Shown here: piece by piece, positions 34,424-49,712 of the stretch
Layout: each line of letters opens with the position of its first letter
Numbering within the stretch: the first letter of the stretch is position 1
DNA from: Mycobacterium sp. HUMS_12744610
Lineage (GTDB): Bacteria; Actinomycetota; Actinomycetes; Mycobacteriales; Mycobacteriaceae
Reading direction: 5' to 3'
Assembly: GCF_041206865.1 (NCBI RefSeq)
Contig: NZ_JBGEDP010000001.1
Span: 558,001 to 622,000, forward strand
DNA length: 64,000 nucleotides
Notes under the pieces: generated by a model
Databases searched by the model: none
Told to the model about the DNA's origin: nothing
What the model saw: only the letters and a program-made list of their open reading frames with translations
Translations under genes and position numbers: made by a program

Positions 34424-34437
34424 TAGAACACGTTCTA
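34424..34437. promoter_or_regulatory. KstR operator upstream of Rv3531c homologue
   Basis: TAGAACACGTTCTA, a perfect KstR palindrome. TTGACG (34412-34417) and TAGCGT (34436-34441) make a -35/-10 pair with 18-nt spacing enclosing the operator; 6 nt later is the GTG start, so the message should be leaderless. Confidence 0.93.
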
Positions 34438-44792: not shown

Positions 44793-44806
44793 TAGAACAC
44801 GTTCTA
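44793..44806. promoter_or_regulatory. KstR operator of the Rv3519-cyp142 operon
   Basis: TAGAACACGTTCTA, a perfect KstR palindrome. TAGATT (44805-44810) plus 6 nt leads to an ATG at 44817-44819, the pattern of the leaderless KstR promoters in this window. The group II intron begins at 44820. Confidence 0.93.
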
Positions 44807-45187
44807 GATTGGCCCGATGGTGCGTCCTGAAAGTTGGATTGGACTAGCGGGTGGAAGTCCCGTCCCGGTAGGTACCGGAGCGCCGGGTAGCAGGCCCCGG
44901 TTCGTTGGAGAGATCTGGCGGGCTGAGCGGGGTGTCGAGAGCCTCTTTGGAGGGAGCAAGTGTGCGGGCCGTAGCGTTAAGCGAACTCTGCAGCCTCGTC
45001 ACAACCACAATGGGAGAGCCGAGCCGCTCATTTCACGGCGAAGGCCATGTCCGGCGAGCCCTGGTCCGGGGTCAGCTTGTCGGGTCTTCCCGGGGTATGG
45101 GTGGCGGCACGTGCACATAGTCTGGTTCGGAACAGGAGAGACCCGTCTGCCTGGCCTTCGTCGGGCAAAGACCAGGGGTATAAGCCG

Positions 45188-46693
45188 ATGGTGAAATCCT
45201 TTGGAGGGCAGCGGGAGTCCGATGGGGTCGTAGTACCGCGGATCGGCGTGCAACATAACGCGCCGGGAGGGAAGGGCCCCGACTTTGATCATGCGCGTGA
45301 AGTGGGTAAGCGTGAGGGCATGGCCGGGTCTGCCCGGTCCAACTACCCCGGTGGGCTATCGCCTGTCGTAGCCGACGAGGAGCCGTTGAGTTGCTCGCCG
45401 GTGAAAGTGCGACAACTGCAACGCACGCTATGGGCTGCGGCCAAGCAGTCGAAGGGTCGGCGTTTCCACGTCCTGTATGACCGTATCTGTCGGGGTGACG
45501 TCCTGGTGGAGGCGTGGGAACGAGTGCGCAAGAACAGGGGTGCGGCCGGGATGGATCGTGTCACTCTGGTCGCGGTGGAGGATTACGGCGTGGACCGCAT
45601 GTTGCGTGAGTTGCGCCATGACCTTTGCGAGGGTGTGTATCGTCCCGCGCCAGCCAGGCGTGTGGAGATTCCGAAACCACGAGGTGGTGTGCGGCCGTTG
45701 GGGATTCCCACGGTGCGAGACCGGGTGGCTCAGGCGGCGGCCAAGCTGGTGTTGGAACCGATTTTCGAGGCGGACTTTCTGTCGTGCTCGTATGGGTTTC
45801 GGCCGAAGCGGTCGGCGACGATGGCGATGGAGCGGTTGCGTACCGGGTTCATCGAGGGTCATCGGTTCGTGGTCGAGTTCGACATCGCCAATTTCTTCGG
45901 CGAGATCGACCACGAACGCCTGCTTGAGTTGGTGGGCAGGCGGGTCTCGGATCGCAGAATACTCAAACTGCTGCGTTTGTGGCTGCAAGCAGGGGTGTTG
46001 GTCGACGGGGTGGTGACGCGGACGGTCGCGGGCACCCCGCAGGGCGGGGTCATCTCCCCGCTGCTGGCTAACGTCTTCCTGCACGTGCTCGACACTGAAC
46101 TGTCCGCCCGCGGGGTGGGTGAGTTGGTGCGCTACGCCGATGACGGTGTGGTGCTGTGCCGATCGCAGGCACAGGCGAATGTGGCTCTGGAAGCGGTGGG
46201 AGAGATCCTGGCGTCGTTGGGGTTGCGGCTGCATCCGGAGAAGACGAAGGTGGTCGATCTGCGTGAGGGTCGTGAGGGCCTGGATTTTCTGGGTTGTCAT
46301 TTCCGGGCGCGCATGTCGGGGCGGTTGTGGGAGCAGCAGCGCATTGTGCGCTACTACCTGCACCGTTGGCCCAGCCAAACGGCGATGGTGCGGCTGCGGA
46401 CGAAAGTTCGTGAGCGTACCGGTCGTCACCGGGTCGGAGCCGATATTCGCGATGTGATCGCGGATCTCAATCCGATCTTGCACGGCTGGGGCAACTACTT
46501 TCGGACCGGTAACGCCGCCGAGAAGTTCCGTCAGATCGACTGGTATGTGAATAGTCGGCTGTTCCGCTTGATGGTTAAGAAGCGGGGCCGCAACCTACGC
46601 GCAGGCCAGGCCGATCAGTGGACCGAAGCGTGGTTCAACGGGCACGGCCTGCACCGGCTTCGTGGCACTATCCGCTACCCGAAGGCTGCGTAA
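45188..46693 (+). CDS. ltrA: Group II intron reverse transcriptase/maturase
   Basis: 501 residues from ATG (MVKSFGGQRESDGVVVPRIG), the usual start of this subclass; longer frames run into the intron RNA structure. Reverse transcriptase domain from about 75 to 365 with GIPTVRDRVAQAAAKLVLEP, QGGVISPLLANVFLHVLD and the catalytic YADD (Tyr316 to Asp319). A group II maturase (X/GIIM) domain follows (ILHGWGNYFRTGNAAEKFRQ). No HNH endonuclease domain is seen at the C-terminus (RGTIRYPKAA). Function: splicing of the intron RNA and retromobility. Intact, so probably active. Confidence 0.92.
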   Translation: MVKSFGGQRESDGVVVPRIGVQHNAPGGKGPDFDHAREVGKREGMAGSARSNYPGGLSPVVADEEPLSCSPVKVRQLQRTLWAAAKQSKGRRFHVLYDRICRGDVLVEAWERVRKNRGAAGMDRVTLVAVEDYGVDRMLRELRHDLCEGVYRPAPARRVEIPKPRGGVRPLGIPTVRDRVAQAAAKLVLEPIFEADFLSCSYGFRPKRSATMAMERLRTGFIEGHRFVVEFDIANFFGEIDHERLLELVGRRVSDRRILKLLRLWLQAGVLVDGVVTRTVAGTPQGGVISPLLANVFLHVLDTELSARGVGELVRYADDGVVLCRSQAQANVALEAVGEILASLGLRLHPEKTKVVDLREGREGLDFLGCHFRARMSGRLWEQQRIVRYYLHRWPSQTAMVRLRTKVRERTGRHRVGADIRDVIADLNPILHGWGNYFRTGNAAEKFRQIDWYVNSRLFRLMVKKRGRNLRAGQADQWTEAWFNGHGLHRLRGTIRYPKAA

Positions 46694-46715
46694 CCATGTC
46701 AAGAAGATCATCGGT

Positions 46716-46749
46716 AAGCCGTGTGCGGGAAAACCGCATGCACGGATTG
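46716..46749 (+). ncRNA. Group II intron domain V
   Basis: AAGCCGTGTGCGGGAAAACC followed by GCATGCACGGATT folds into the conserved domain V hairpin: GAAA-type loop, AGC catalytic triad at 46717-46719. It lies 22 nt after the maturase stop, where it belongs. Confidence 0.8.
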
Positions 46750-46803
46750 AAAGGGGGATGGGGAAACGGGTCTGCTCTGCGGACACCGCGCCCCTGACTA
46801 CCA

Positions 46804-47520
46804 ATGACAGCCTCCCAGCACACCATCGCGGGCACGGTACTCACCATGCCGGTGCGGATCCGTCAGGCGACGCAGCACATGGCGATGTTCTCGGTGGACG
46901 CCGACGCGGCCCAGCGCCTGATCGACTACAGCGGGCTGCGGGTGTGCCGCTACCTGCCCGGGCGCGCGATCGTGGTGCTGATGCTGATGCATTACATCGA
47001 CGGCGACCTCGGCCGGTACCACGAATTCGGCACCAGCGTCATGGTGAACCCGCCGGGGTCGCGCGCGACCGGGCCGCGTGCCCTACAGGACGCCGGCGCC
47101 TTCATCCACCACCTGCCCGTCGACCAGGCGTTCACGCTGGAAGCGGGAACCAAGATCTGGGGTTACCCGAAGGTCATGGCGGACTTCACCGTTCGCGAGG
47201 GTCGGACGTTCGGGTTCGACTGCAGTGTGGACGGGCAGTTGGTGATCGGCATGGAGTTCGGGCGCGGCCTGCCGATCCGGCTGACCCCGCGCCACCAGGC
47301 GCAGCGCACCTACTCCCACCGCGACGGCGTCACGCGCGAGACCTCCTTCGAGCACACGCTGAGCGGCGTGCACACCCGCCCCGGTGGCGTGCACGTCCGG
47401 CTCGGCGATCACCCCTACGCCAAAGAGTTGGCGTCGCTGGGCCTTCCGAAGCGTGCGCTGGTGTCGACCTCCGTGGACAACGTACAGATGACCTTCGGTG
47501 ACGCTCAGGAGATCTCATGA
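46804..47520 (+). CDS. Acetoacetate-decarboxylase-like protein (Rv3519 homologue)
   Basis: 238 residues from ATG (MTASQHTIAGTVLTMPVRIR). Acetoacetate decarboxylase fold: HYIDGDLGRYHEFGTSVMVN, LPVDQAFTLEAGTKIWGYPK with the Lys of the active-site region, and MADFTVREG. It is in the KstR regulon just before cyp142, and its function is unknown. The stop overlaps cyp142 as ATGA. The natural promoter lies upstream of the group II intron, so normal expression should require splicing or a promoter inside the intron. Confidence 0.85.
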   Translation: MTASQHTIAGTVLTMPVRIRQATQHMAMFSVDADAAQRLIDYSGLRVCRYLPGRAIVVLMLMHYIDGDLGRYHEFGTSVMVNPPGSRATGPRALQDAGAFIHHLPVDQAFTLEAGTKIWGYPKVMADFTVREGRTFGFDCSVDGQLVIGMEFGRGLPIRLTPRHQAQRTYSHRDGVTRETSFEHTLSGVHTRPGGVHVRLGDHPYAKELASLGLPKRALVSTSVDNVQMTFGDAQEIS

Positions 47521-48710
47521 CCATGACTCGACCCGACGTCGACCTGACCGACGGGACCTTTTACGCCGGTGACTCCCGGCCCGTCTACAAGTGGATGCGG
47601 GAGAACGAGCCGGTGTTCCGCGACCGCAACGGGCTGGCCGCCGCGTCGACGTATCAGGCCGTGATCGACGCCGAGCGCAACCCCGAGCTGTTCTCGAATG
47701 CCGGCGGCATCCGTCCCGACCAGCCGGGGGTCGAGATGATGATCGAGATGGACGACCCGCAACATCTGTTGCGCCGCAAGCTCGTCAACTCCGGCTTCAC
47801 CCGCAAGCGCGTCAAGGACCAGGAGTCCAAGATCGTCGAGCTGTGCGACACGCTGATCGACGCGGTCTGCGAGCGCGGCGAATGCGACTTCGTCTGGGAT
47901 CTGGCCGCGCCGCTGCCGATGGCGGTCATCGGCGACATGCTCGGCGTGCGCCCGGAGGAACGCGAGATGTTCCTCAAGTGGTCCGACGACCTGGTCGGCG
48001 CGTTGAGCAGCACCGCCGCCGAAGCCGACGTCCAGGTCACCATGGACGCGTTCGCCGCCTACAGCGAATACATGATGGGCATGATCGGGGCCCGCAAGGA
48101 AAGCCCGACCGACGACCTGGTCAGCGTCCTGGTGCACGCGGAGGTCGAAGGCGCGCACCTCGAGGACCACCAGATCGTCACCGAGGTGCTGCTGTTGCTG
48201 ATCGGCGGCGACGAGACGACACGGCACACGCTCTCCGGTGGCACACGCCAGCTGCTGGTGCACCCCGACCAGCACCAGCGTCTGGCGGCCGACCTGAGCA
48301 TGCTGCCCAACGCGATCGAGGAGATGCTGCGCTGGACCGCGCCGGTGAAGAACATGGCCCGCACCATCACCGCGGACACGGAATTCCACGGCACCGCGTT
48401 GCGCCAGGGCGAGAAGATCATCCTGCTGTTCGAGTCGGCGAACTTCGACGAGAAGGTCTTCGAGAACCCGGAGAATTTCGACATCGAGCGCTACCCGAAC
48501 AACCACCTGGCGTTCGGCTTCGGGACGCACTTCTGCCTGGGCAACCAGCTCGCCCGGCTCGAGCTGTCGATCATGCAGAGCCGGCTGTTGCAGCGTCTTC
48601 CCGACATGCGGCTGGCGTCGGACGCGGCGCTGCCGCTGCGCCCGGCGAACTTCGTGTCCGGCCTCGAGAAGATGCCGGTCGTCTTCAGCCCCGCCGCGCC
48701 GCTGGGCTGA
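47517..48710 (+). CDS. cyp142: Cytochrome P450 CYP142
   Basis: 397 residues from ATG (MTMTRPDVDLTDGTFYAGDS). I-helix LIGGDETTRHTLSGG, ExxR in AIEEMLRWTAP, and haem ligand Cys340 in FGFGTHFCLGNQLARLE. CYP142 is a second cholesterol/cholestenone C26 oxidase of opposite stereochemistry to CYP125 and can replace it. The 4-nt overlap with the Rv3519 homologue shows a shared transcript. A 60-bp hairpin element starts 8 nt after the stop. Confidence 0.93.
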   Translation: MTMTRPDVDLTDGTFYAGDSRPVYKWMRENEPVFRDRNGLAAASTYQAVIDAERNPELFSNAGGIRPDQPGVEMMIEMDDPQHLLRRKLVNSGFTRKRVKDQESKIVELCDTLIDAVCERGECDFVWDLAAPLPMAVIGDMLGVRPEEREMFLKWSDDLVGALSSTAAEADVQVTMDAFAAYSEYMMGMIGARKESPTDDLVSVLVHAEVEGAHLEDHQIVTEVLLLLIGGDETTRHTLSGGTRQLLVHPDQHQRLAADLSMLPNAIEEMLRWTAPVKNMARTITADTEFHGTALRQGEKIILLFESANFDEKVFENPENFDIERYPNNHLAFGFGTHFCLGNQLARLELSIMQSRLLQRLPDMRLASDAALPLRPANFVSGLEKMPVVFSPAAPLG

Positions 48711-48718
48711 CCCCGCGC

Positions 48719-48778
48719 GCCGAGAGTGAAACTGTTGCGAAAAAACGGCTTAAAACTCGCCACAGTTTCACTCTCGGC
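48719..48778. repeat. 60-bp inverted-repeat element, copy B
   Basis: GCCGAGAGTGAAACTGT at the left pairs perfectly over 17 bp with ACAGTTTCACTCTCGGC at the right; the centre is AT-rich. It includes the last bases and stop codon of the leftward DUF559 gene and ends cyp142. Same length as copies A and C. Confidence 0.8.
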
Positions 48779-49607
48779 GATCCCATGCCGCTGATACCCG
48801 TCCGATTGCCCCACCCGGGGTGTCTTCGGCTGTAATCCGGACGTCGATCCAGCCCAATTCCGCGAGGGCTTCGGCGCGCCGGATGTCATGGTTGAACCGC
48901 CGTCGATCGGTGCGGTGGTGATCGCCCTCGTAGTCTGCGGCGATCTTCACCTCCTCCCAGCCCATGTCGCAGACCGCGACCAGCTGGCCGTATCGGTCGC
49001 GCACGGGAATCTGCGTGCGCGGACGGGGAAAGCCGGCCCGGATGAGCAAGAGGCGCAGCCAGGTTTCGCGCGGTGACTCGGCGCCGGCATCGACGAGATC
49101 CAGCGCGCAGAGCGCCCGCCGGATGCCTCGGCGTCCCTTATAACGCTCGGCGAGTAGCTCGACGTCTGCCATCTTCAGGCGGGTCGCCCGGGCGAGGCCA
49201 TCGATCAGCGCGACCGCCTTGTCTACCGGATAGCGCGACGCCAGGTCGAGGGCGGTGCGCGCCGGCGTCGTCACTGGCATTCCCTTGAGCGTCGCGACCT
49301 CGTCGTCCTCGATGCGATCGGCCCAGGTGCGGATTTGCGCGGGGGCATGCCGATTCTGGTAGATGAGTTCGGCGGGTGCATTCCCGTCGATCCACTTGGC
49401 GCCGTGCAGCGCCGAGGCCGAGCGGCCCGCGACGATGCCGCGCCGCCGGGACCACAACCAGGCGGCCTCGGCGCGCACCACGGCGGTGATCTCGGTATCC
49501 CGCGGCACGTAAACGTCGCGGTGGATCGCCGTGAAGCTGCTGCGCAGCGCGTACGGCGTAACGCGACCCGAGGCGACGGCCTCGCTACCTAGGAATGGCC
49601 CCACCAT
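48768..49607 (-). CDS. AbiEi-like/DUF559 protein
   Basis: 279 residues from ATG (MVGPFLGSEAVASGRVTPYA); a GTG 10 codons upstream is possible. The N-terminal half resembles the AbiEi antitoxin-type helix-turn-helix region (VARSASALHGAKW: GIVAGRSASALHGAKWIDG). The C-terminal part (about 195-275) has a DUF559/Vsr-like nuclease core: CDMGWEEVKIAADYEGDHHR and RRFNHDIRRAEALAELGWID. No AbiEii toxin gene is adjacent, so it is not a complete toxin-antitoxin pair. Mycobacteria carry many solo copies of this family with unknown function. Flanked on both sides by the 60-bp repeat, suggesting a unit gained as a block within the echA19-cyp142 gap. Confidence 0.75.
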   Translation of the reverse strand: MVGPFLGSEAVASGRVTPYALRSSFTAIHRDVYVPRDTEITAVVRAEAAWLWSRRRGIVAGRSASALHGAKWIDGNAPAELIYQNRHAPAQIRTWADRIEDDEVATLKGMPVTTPARTALDLASRYPVDKAVALIDGLARATRLKMADVELLAERYKGRRGIRRALCALDLVDAGAESPRETWLRLLLIRAGFPRPRTQIPVRDRYGQLVAVCDMGWEEVKIAADYEGDHHRTDRRRFNHDIRRAEALAELGWIDVRITAEDTPGGAIGRVSAAWDRRE

Positions 49608-49640: not shown

Positions 49641-49700
49641 GCCGAGCGTGAAACTGCCGCGAGAAAAATCCGAAAAATCGGCAACAGCTTCACGTTCGGC
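49641..49700. repeat. 60-bp inverted-repeat element, copy C
   Basis: Starts GCCGAGCGTGAAACTG and ends CAGCTTCACGTTCGGC, inverted repeats with two mismatches; same length as copies A and B. It lies 12 nt after the echA19 stop and before the DUF559 start. Confidence 0.75.
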
Positions 49701-49712
49701 GCAGCGAGGGGG

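Follow-up and report, generated by a model that had tools for sequence, protein, structure and literature searches.

Group II introns of the Ll.LtrB/RmInt1 homing type carry their reverse transcriptase in domain IV and find long target sequences by pairing of exon-binding and intron-binding sequences (EBS-IBS). The branch-point A of group II introns usually lies 7-8 nucleotides (nt) before the 3' end, and the usual 3' end is AY, which is not strictly defining. A 2015 review (PMC4424553) names three target specificities for such introns in bacteria, namely homing sites, terminators and attC. Housekeeping genes are described in PMC6003770 as seldom interrupted. In C.te.I1 of Clostridium tetani, the start codons of downstream genes lie inside the domain 5/6 motifs, as described by McNeil et al. 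(PMC3919590). The DNA analyzed here, 64,000 nt from Mycobacterium sp. HUMS_12744610 (contig NZ_JBGEDP010000001.1, positions 558,001 to 622,000; hereafter the window), holds a group II intron of 1,987 nt directly behind a start codon.

The window intron very probably belongs to a monophyletic intron family that lacks an endonuclease and targets RTG at a predicted transcription start, 6-8 nt 3' of a -10 element, usually the start codon of a leaderless gene. At the level of sequence, insertion occurs between RTG and the next codon, the exon-binding sequence 1 (EBS1) covaries with NRTG, a spare RTG is present at the 3' end, and in most members the captured frame either runs on into the reverse transcriptase or halts at the start codon of the latter. 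The general rule, the intron-borne ATG at 46804 and the frame from 44817 that ends on the maturase start codon go beyond the initial annotation of this locus. The site comprises the following features.

44793..44806, +: KstR-type operator TAGAACACGTTCTA, overlapping the -10 box
44805..44810, +: -10 box TAGATT (TAnnnT), 6 nt before the ATG, present in intron-free relatives, e.g. L013
44817..44819, +: captured host start codon ATG, predicted transcription start, able to pair with EBS1; identified from the empty sites of relatives
44817..45194, +: open frame of 125 amino acids (aa) that begins with the captured ATG and crosses the 5' ribozyme domains; its stop codon TGA overlaps the ATG of the intron-encoded protein (ATGGTGA)
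44820..46806, +: group II intron, 1,987 nt, GTGCG...CTACCAATG, from domain matches, own-genome copies and empty-site comparison
44845..44979, +: ribozyme domain match to group-II-D1D4-4 (RF02003), 93 bits, E 3e-20, above the gathering score
45021..45039, +: hairpin bearing a proposed EBS1, whose CATT (45029-45032) can pair with a GATG/GGTG target, from loop comparison and pairing test
45188..46693, +: intron-encoded reverse transcriptase/maturase (intron-encoded protein, IEP), 501 aa, predicted start at the overlapping ATG, YADD at 46133-46144
46715..46749, +: domain V, AGC triad at 46717-46719, from Rfam match and alignment
46752..46806, +: domain VI, folded, with a bulged A at 46800 as probable branch point, 7 nt from the 3' end
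46804..46806, +: intron-borne replacement start codon ATG, the last three intron bases
46807..47520, +: Rv3519-like gene from codon 2, Pfam ADC (PF06314)
47517..48710, +: cyp142-like cytochrome P450, the name cyp142 being that of the initial annotation

Borders of the intron and its copies

The ribozyme domains and the protein identify the element as a group II intron. Besides the RF02003 match, Intron_gpII (RF00029) matches domains V and VI at 46714-46798 with 36.0 bits (E 0.00026), below the gathering score of 40. Of 37 loci, 34 had a 3' end that matched the pattern applied, and domain V was aligned in these 34. The 5' end GTGCG at 44820 fits the group II GUGYG criterion. Several relatives, e.g. 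L072, L074, L098 and L113, start with TTGCG or TCGCG instead. The initial annotation had described a sense orientation and an intact maturase, and both are borne out. The protein reaches 413 bits against TIGR04416 (cut-off 300), contains YADD and carries the Pfam domains RVT_1 and GIIM with a weak overlapping RdRP_1. A Pfam scan of the maturase detected no endonuclease domain.

Four full copies of 1,987 nt are present in the genome, three identical and the fourth with two differences; such near-identity at several sites implies recent mobility. In all four, RTG is followed by GTGCG at the 5' end, and CCAATG is followed by codon 2 at the 3' end. The three other copies sit behind the ATG or GTG of genes whose translations differ from Rv3519. 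Two of them, L002 and L004, have GTG at the 5' but ATG at the 3' junction, so the 5' RTG belongs to the host and the 3' ATG to the intron. A target-site duplication of RTG was rejected in view of the same two copies, with GTG upstream and ATG downstream, and of the empty sites of relatives, which mostly have GTG. The frame after the intron-borne ATG of L004 comprises only 115 codons, with low-complexity residues at its end.

In intron-free relatives of the window site, e.g. L013 and L016, the empty site reads ...TAGATTggcccgATG ACAGCC, i.e. operator, TAGATT, 6 nt, ATG and ACAGCC. The operator TAGAACACGTTCTA is kept in most of the 29 intron-free relatives read (L013-L041) and is absent in L020 and L033, which are also the few without the box. 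Comparison with these relatives gives a net insertion of 1,987 nt with a terminal ATG, fixes the 3' border at 46806 and links operator, promoter and ATG with ACAGCC. By its sequence, the window intron sits between the start codon and codon 2. Operator, TANNNT box, ATG 6 nt later and an intron from 44820 were all found where the initial annotation had placed them, and its suggestion that splicing could restore a leaderless start agrees with the borders, which would yield exactly ATG-ACA-GCC. It had let the Rv3519 frame resume at 46804. An ATG is indeed located there, but it consists of the last three intron bases, and codon 2 follows at 46807.

Folding of the domains, proposed earlier as a way to the 3' end, agrees with this border, with the bulged A of domain VI at 46800. 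This A lies 7 nt from the intron end in 6/6 domain VI sequences folded singly, and Neobacillus outgroup copies ending in TTACTCTAC, with borders obtained by comparing copies, have the same distance. Junctions after R or after RT were considered and are disfavored by the branch-point distance and by a pairing that ends on G, both favoring a junction after RTG.

For each own copy, at least one intron-free relative has TAnnnT 6 nt before RTG. A TATGCT box stands just upstream of RTG at the L002 site in 12/12 listed relatives (10 GTG, two ATG). The L004 site has GTG in 10 of the 12 listed relatives; L164 has ATG, and L175 is a poor match.

The operator pattern TNGAACNNGTTCNA has four matches in the window, including the one at the intron site, versus 0.02 expected. 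The other three KstR-type operators are located at 34424, 36786 and 43675. Inverted repeats resembling Rfam Ms_IGR-8, below its gathering score, occur at 48707-48769 (+), 48728-48788 (-) and 49650-49712 (-).

Target site of the family

Relatives of the intron were found in Mycobacterium, other Actinomycetota, Nannocystis and other Myxococcota, Rubrivivax, Planctomycetota, Acidobacteriota and others, of which the best 80 of 567 were taken. A single chromosome record of Nannocystis poenicansa carries at least nine loci. In the genus of the window, 31 of 396 genomes gave a match, the own genome included. From 70 distinct junction rows, seven secondary or partial ones were dropped and the true junction of L104 was added by hand, giving 64. 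L098 and L111 (conforming) and L008 (decayed, non-conforming) were added by hand to reach 67. Among the own decayed fragments, L008 has a readable 5' border and breaks the rule; the short L009 and L011 were left out. The intron follows RTG in 65/67 junctions of this working set. TAnnnT ends 6-8 nt before RTG in 58/64 junctions with at least 20 nt of flank, and xAnnnT does so in 61/64; L075, L110 and L115, with a flank of only 4 nt, were left out of this count. Such a box precedes 176 of 21,562 RTGs (0.8%) elsewhere in the same loci. Without the three conforming rows added by hand, the counts are 62/64 for RTG and 55/61 for TAnnnT. L119 (TAGAAT, 6 nt, ATG) was found later and stands outside the counts.

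The expectation was set before a phylum-wide search, in which 14 of 396 genomes, the own included, gave a match. Of 21 places, 15 were read, the six others being own copies or inner fragments. L223 repeats L209, and L230 and L239 fall short of the 5' end, which leaves 12 junctions. RTG is present in 12/12, TAnnnT in 9/12 and xAnnnT in 10/12. For both sets together, the box is spaced by 6, 7 and 8 nt in 35, 27 and 5 cases, respectively. Among M. tuberculosis genes with a primary start site, 26% are leaderless according to Cortes 2013 (PMC3898074). Against this rate, the nominal chance is 1.5e-27 and 5e-4 for the two sets, the sites of one intron lineage being not fully independent. L077 and L196, both before ilvE, and L206 and L219, with similar flanks, may be shared old insertions. 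The same study (Cortes 2013, PMC3898074) gives TANNNT as -10 motif, reports no -35 motif and names C as commonest base at -1. No -35 signal was seen in 67 aligned intron sites, and C stands directly before RTG in 52/74, partly due to the EBS1 pairing.

The EBS1 was readable by pattern in 62 of the 72 rows tried. It was not read in L052, L102, L103, L112, L113, L195, L197, L224, L231 and L233; the loops of L112 and L197 may not pair. The loop CAYN can pair with NRTG. Base -4 (N) is pairable in 58/62 introns, wobble included, compared with a shuffled mean of 35.2, and a value as high occurred in 0/5,000 shuffles. At -5 to -7, the 62 introns gave no pairing signal. CAC loops are located at GTG in 8/8 cases (six of one lineage), and the 54 CAT loops at ATG (47), GTG (6) and GCG (1). 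Two Nannocystis lineages differ in loop and target, CAT with mostly ATG versus CAC with mostly GTG as start codon. The window loop is CATT, and G occupies base -4 in all four own hosts. Since EBS1 provides only four bases of specificity, the -10 box must count.

Reading frames and proposed mechanism

The captured frame of the window ends with TGA at 45192-45194, overlapping the codon at 45188, an ATG in the reading frame of the reverse transcriptase. Among 51 non-redundant introns, 42 have no stop in the captured RTG frame within the first 363 nt, and none is free of stops in either of the other two frames; the stops amount to 17 versus 148 and 221, respectively. The captured frame is continuous to the reverse transcriptase in 22/64 rows, i.e. 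11 with YADD found and 11 Nannocystis copies with a 633-codon frame and the same C-terminal residues. It stops after 121-131 codons in 29/64. Of these short frames, 24 were read as ending within RTGGTGA, where they overlap the following start codon; four reach a TAA directly ahead of that codon, and the last, L106, stops elsewhere. These frames suggest that the captured codon serves the intron for making its own enzyme. What a first alignment presented as a possible conserved N-terminal extension of the IEP is probably translated ribozyme sequence. Selection at the amino-acid level was also considered for the captured frame. Over the first 60 nt of chosen actinobacterial rows, differences numbered 135, 193 and 229 at codon positions 1, 2 and 3. 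The third-position bias is only weak, so an open frame is claimed and not a conserved peptide. In L099, L100, L103 and L114, the captured RTG frame continues across domains V and VI, and its stop falls a few nt short of the intron-borne ATG. This stop lies over an AGGA-like stretch in L099 and L100, which may permit coupling to the host gene on unspliced RNA.

At the 3' end, 44 ATG and 6 GTG were read in 50 introns, a count biased by a pattern that required TG. Behind these codons, 31 open frames have at least 100 codons, 12 run off the locus earlier and 7 close within 60 codons. Ten proteins encoded behind intron-borne ATGs were submitted to NCBIfam. The cut-off was passed by nfo, ilvE, xthA, glyA, ligA, uvrB and RNase AS; the three proteins truncated by the end of their locus (FtsK, porphobilinogen synthase and a FadD32-like ligase) stayed below. 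In the own genome, uvrB is the site of the longer decayed copy. Where ends have diverged or decayed (e.g. L052, L061, L063, L065, L068 and L069), CTACCA drifts and ATG stays, with an open frame of at least 164 codons behind it; ends without ATG may be missed. The retention of ATG suggests a use of the intron-borne codon by the host gene. In L061 and L069, both from the genus of the window, the RNase AS gene starts with the ATG left by diverged intron ends (L061 named by NCBIfam match, L069 by matching start). The annotated start codon of such host genes would be intron-derived.

One far-reaching scenario is proposed tentatively and is given clearly less than an even chance. The ribonucleoprotein (RNP) would invade the bubble opened by RNA polymerase, insert at +3/+4, capture the leaderless start for the reverse transcriptase, leave a replacement start codon and splice a 3-nt exon. 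In the main reading given above, which is rated as very probable, transcription would begin with the R of RTG. Unspliced RNA would be translated from its leaderless RTG, which would lead to the reverse transcriptase. Splicing would join the exon RUG to codon 2 and regenerate the original leaderless mRNA. The intron-borne RTG would keep the host start codon when splicing is poor or the intron decays. The most speculative step is that the -10 box supplies the remaining specificity, be it via the promoter bubble or by direct reading through the RNP.

Several points weigh against the target rule and this mechanism. The proposed 5' exon of 3 nt is very short for splicing. The 3' end ATG (GTG in one Nannocystis lineage) departs with its terminal UG from the AY consensus. 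Transcription start, splicing and translation are inferred. RNA polymerase would cover the promoter, and access of the RNP to the bubble is sterically doubtful. TAnnnT at 6-8 nt is absent in 6/64 and 3/12 sites, with xAnnnT still present in three and one of them, respectively. The junction of L108 follows GCG, that of the decayed fragment L008 follows GTT, and the intron of L106 ends in ACG. At the L001 site, only L176 of 12 listed relatives has the leaderless arrangement; the other 11 differ upstream. The captured frame holds a stop in 9/51 introns, and in 13/64 rows it is neither joined to the reverse transcriptase nor closed in the vicinity of the reverse transcriptase start. At 7 of 38 judgeable sites (L073, L086, L094, L103, L108, L190 and L191), the frame behind the intron-borne RTG is closed after at most 60 codons. 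A more fitting description of the target is therefore an RTG at a predicted start of transcription, in most cases but not in all that of a long gene.

The RNP may itself recognize TAnnnT and NRTG on DNA, by its reverse transcriptase or its RNA and without RNA polymerase, leaderless starts merely holding such sites. This is a serious possibility, only a little short of even. The spacing of 6, 7 or 8 nt varies as the choice of transcription start does, and the conserved bases are those of the sigma-recognized -10 element, which both speak for a role of the polymerase. The EBS1 pairing points to the polymerase-free alternative, as it includes base -4, outside the predicted transcript, and would act at the DNA level. 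The lack of a -35 signal points there too, although mycobacterial promoters also lack one (Cortes 2013, PMC3898074).

It is unlikely that splicing of the intron is rare or absent and that expression of the host gene uses the intron-borne ATG, from unspliced RNA with a 2-kb leader or from an intron-internal promoter. Such expression would agree with the start codon supplied at the 3' end, with the ATG and open frame kept at decayed ends and with the IEP frames of L099 and L100, which end a few nt before the ATG over the AGGA-like stretch. However, the own full copies have kept an intact maturase as well as intact domains V and VI, mobility needs excised intron RNA, and no Shine-Dalgarno-like stretch was seen by eye directly before the intron-borne ATG of the window. 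A less specific insertion, after which selection keeps only copies at leaderless starts, is hardly credible. Insertions there would be unusually harmless, but intergenic copies should be about as harmless; moreover, the rule holds for the four full own copies as well as for the longer of the decayed ones, and EBS1 covaries with the target. The cholesterol-specific control by splicing that the initial annotation had proposed for the Rv3519-cyp142 operon is very improbable. In its favor, the intron is indeed preceded by a promoter with a KstR-type operator. Yet the same intron (0-2 differences over 1,987 nt) stands behind three other start codons, relatives precede glyA, ilvE, nfo and others, and the window copy has nothing site-specific. 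With copies behind other genes, KstR control looks incidental.

Relation to described introns

In a tree of 48 IEP sequences, built without named class references, the 32 start-codon-type rows form one side of a branch with 100/98 support, L078 and L083 being labeled as this type from their 3' ends only. The other 16 sequences include the Neobacillus copies. Two of the four Neobacillus outgroup copies (L143, L146) follow apparent terminator hairpins, as judged by eye. Four actinobacterial introns, L116, L137, L117 and L136, fall outside the start-codon clade and showed no -10/RTG junction with the pattern used. The closest PDB chain to the maturase by sequence is the group IIC enzyme GsI-IIC RT (6ar1). 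Class C insertion, after terminator hairpins or into attC, was not found in the start-codon family, whose sites are of the -10/RTG type. An assignment to class C is not made here, since the insertion rule tested departs from that of the class.

If the rule is true, bacterial group II introns would have a fourth specificity, tied to promoters and leaderless translation. It would account for introns at the starts of genes such as glyA, ilvE and nfo, and for the remnants left at xthA, uvrB and, probably, ligA. The family would supply a sequence marker of leaderless promoters outside mycobacteria and a natural test of splicing with a 3-nt exon, possibly also a principle for gene targeting. Start-codon or promoter targeting was not described among the matches listed in open-licence literature nor in the part of PMC3552965 consulted, which does not amount to absence in print.

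C.te.I1 (PMC3919590) has no IEP, is spliced alternatively at one surface-layer locus and loses the start codons by splicing. The start-codon family, in contrast, is mobile, and its start codon is the 3' terminus of the intron. In Thermosynechococcus elongatus, the twintrons TeI3/TeI4 are inserted between two start codons of the open reading frame of another intron; according to PMC2882425, this is one conserved site, whereas the start-codon family has a general preference for start codons. Insertion by EBS-IBS pairing and a reverse transcriptase in domain IV are shared with the Ll.LtrB/RmInt1 type. The targets of the latter are long, while 4 nt of pairing plus a promoter motif let the start-codon family hit many genes. 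Group IIC introns likewise have a reverse transcriptase without endonuclease and a short EBS1. They target a terminator hairpin or attC and end in AC, in contrast to the -10 element, the RTG and the 3' end RTG of the start-codon family. Unlike in group IIC, the IEP frame of the start-codon family opens at the captured codon or is coupled to it.

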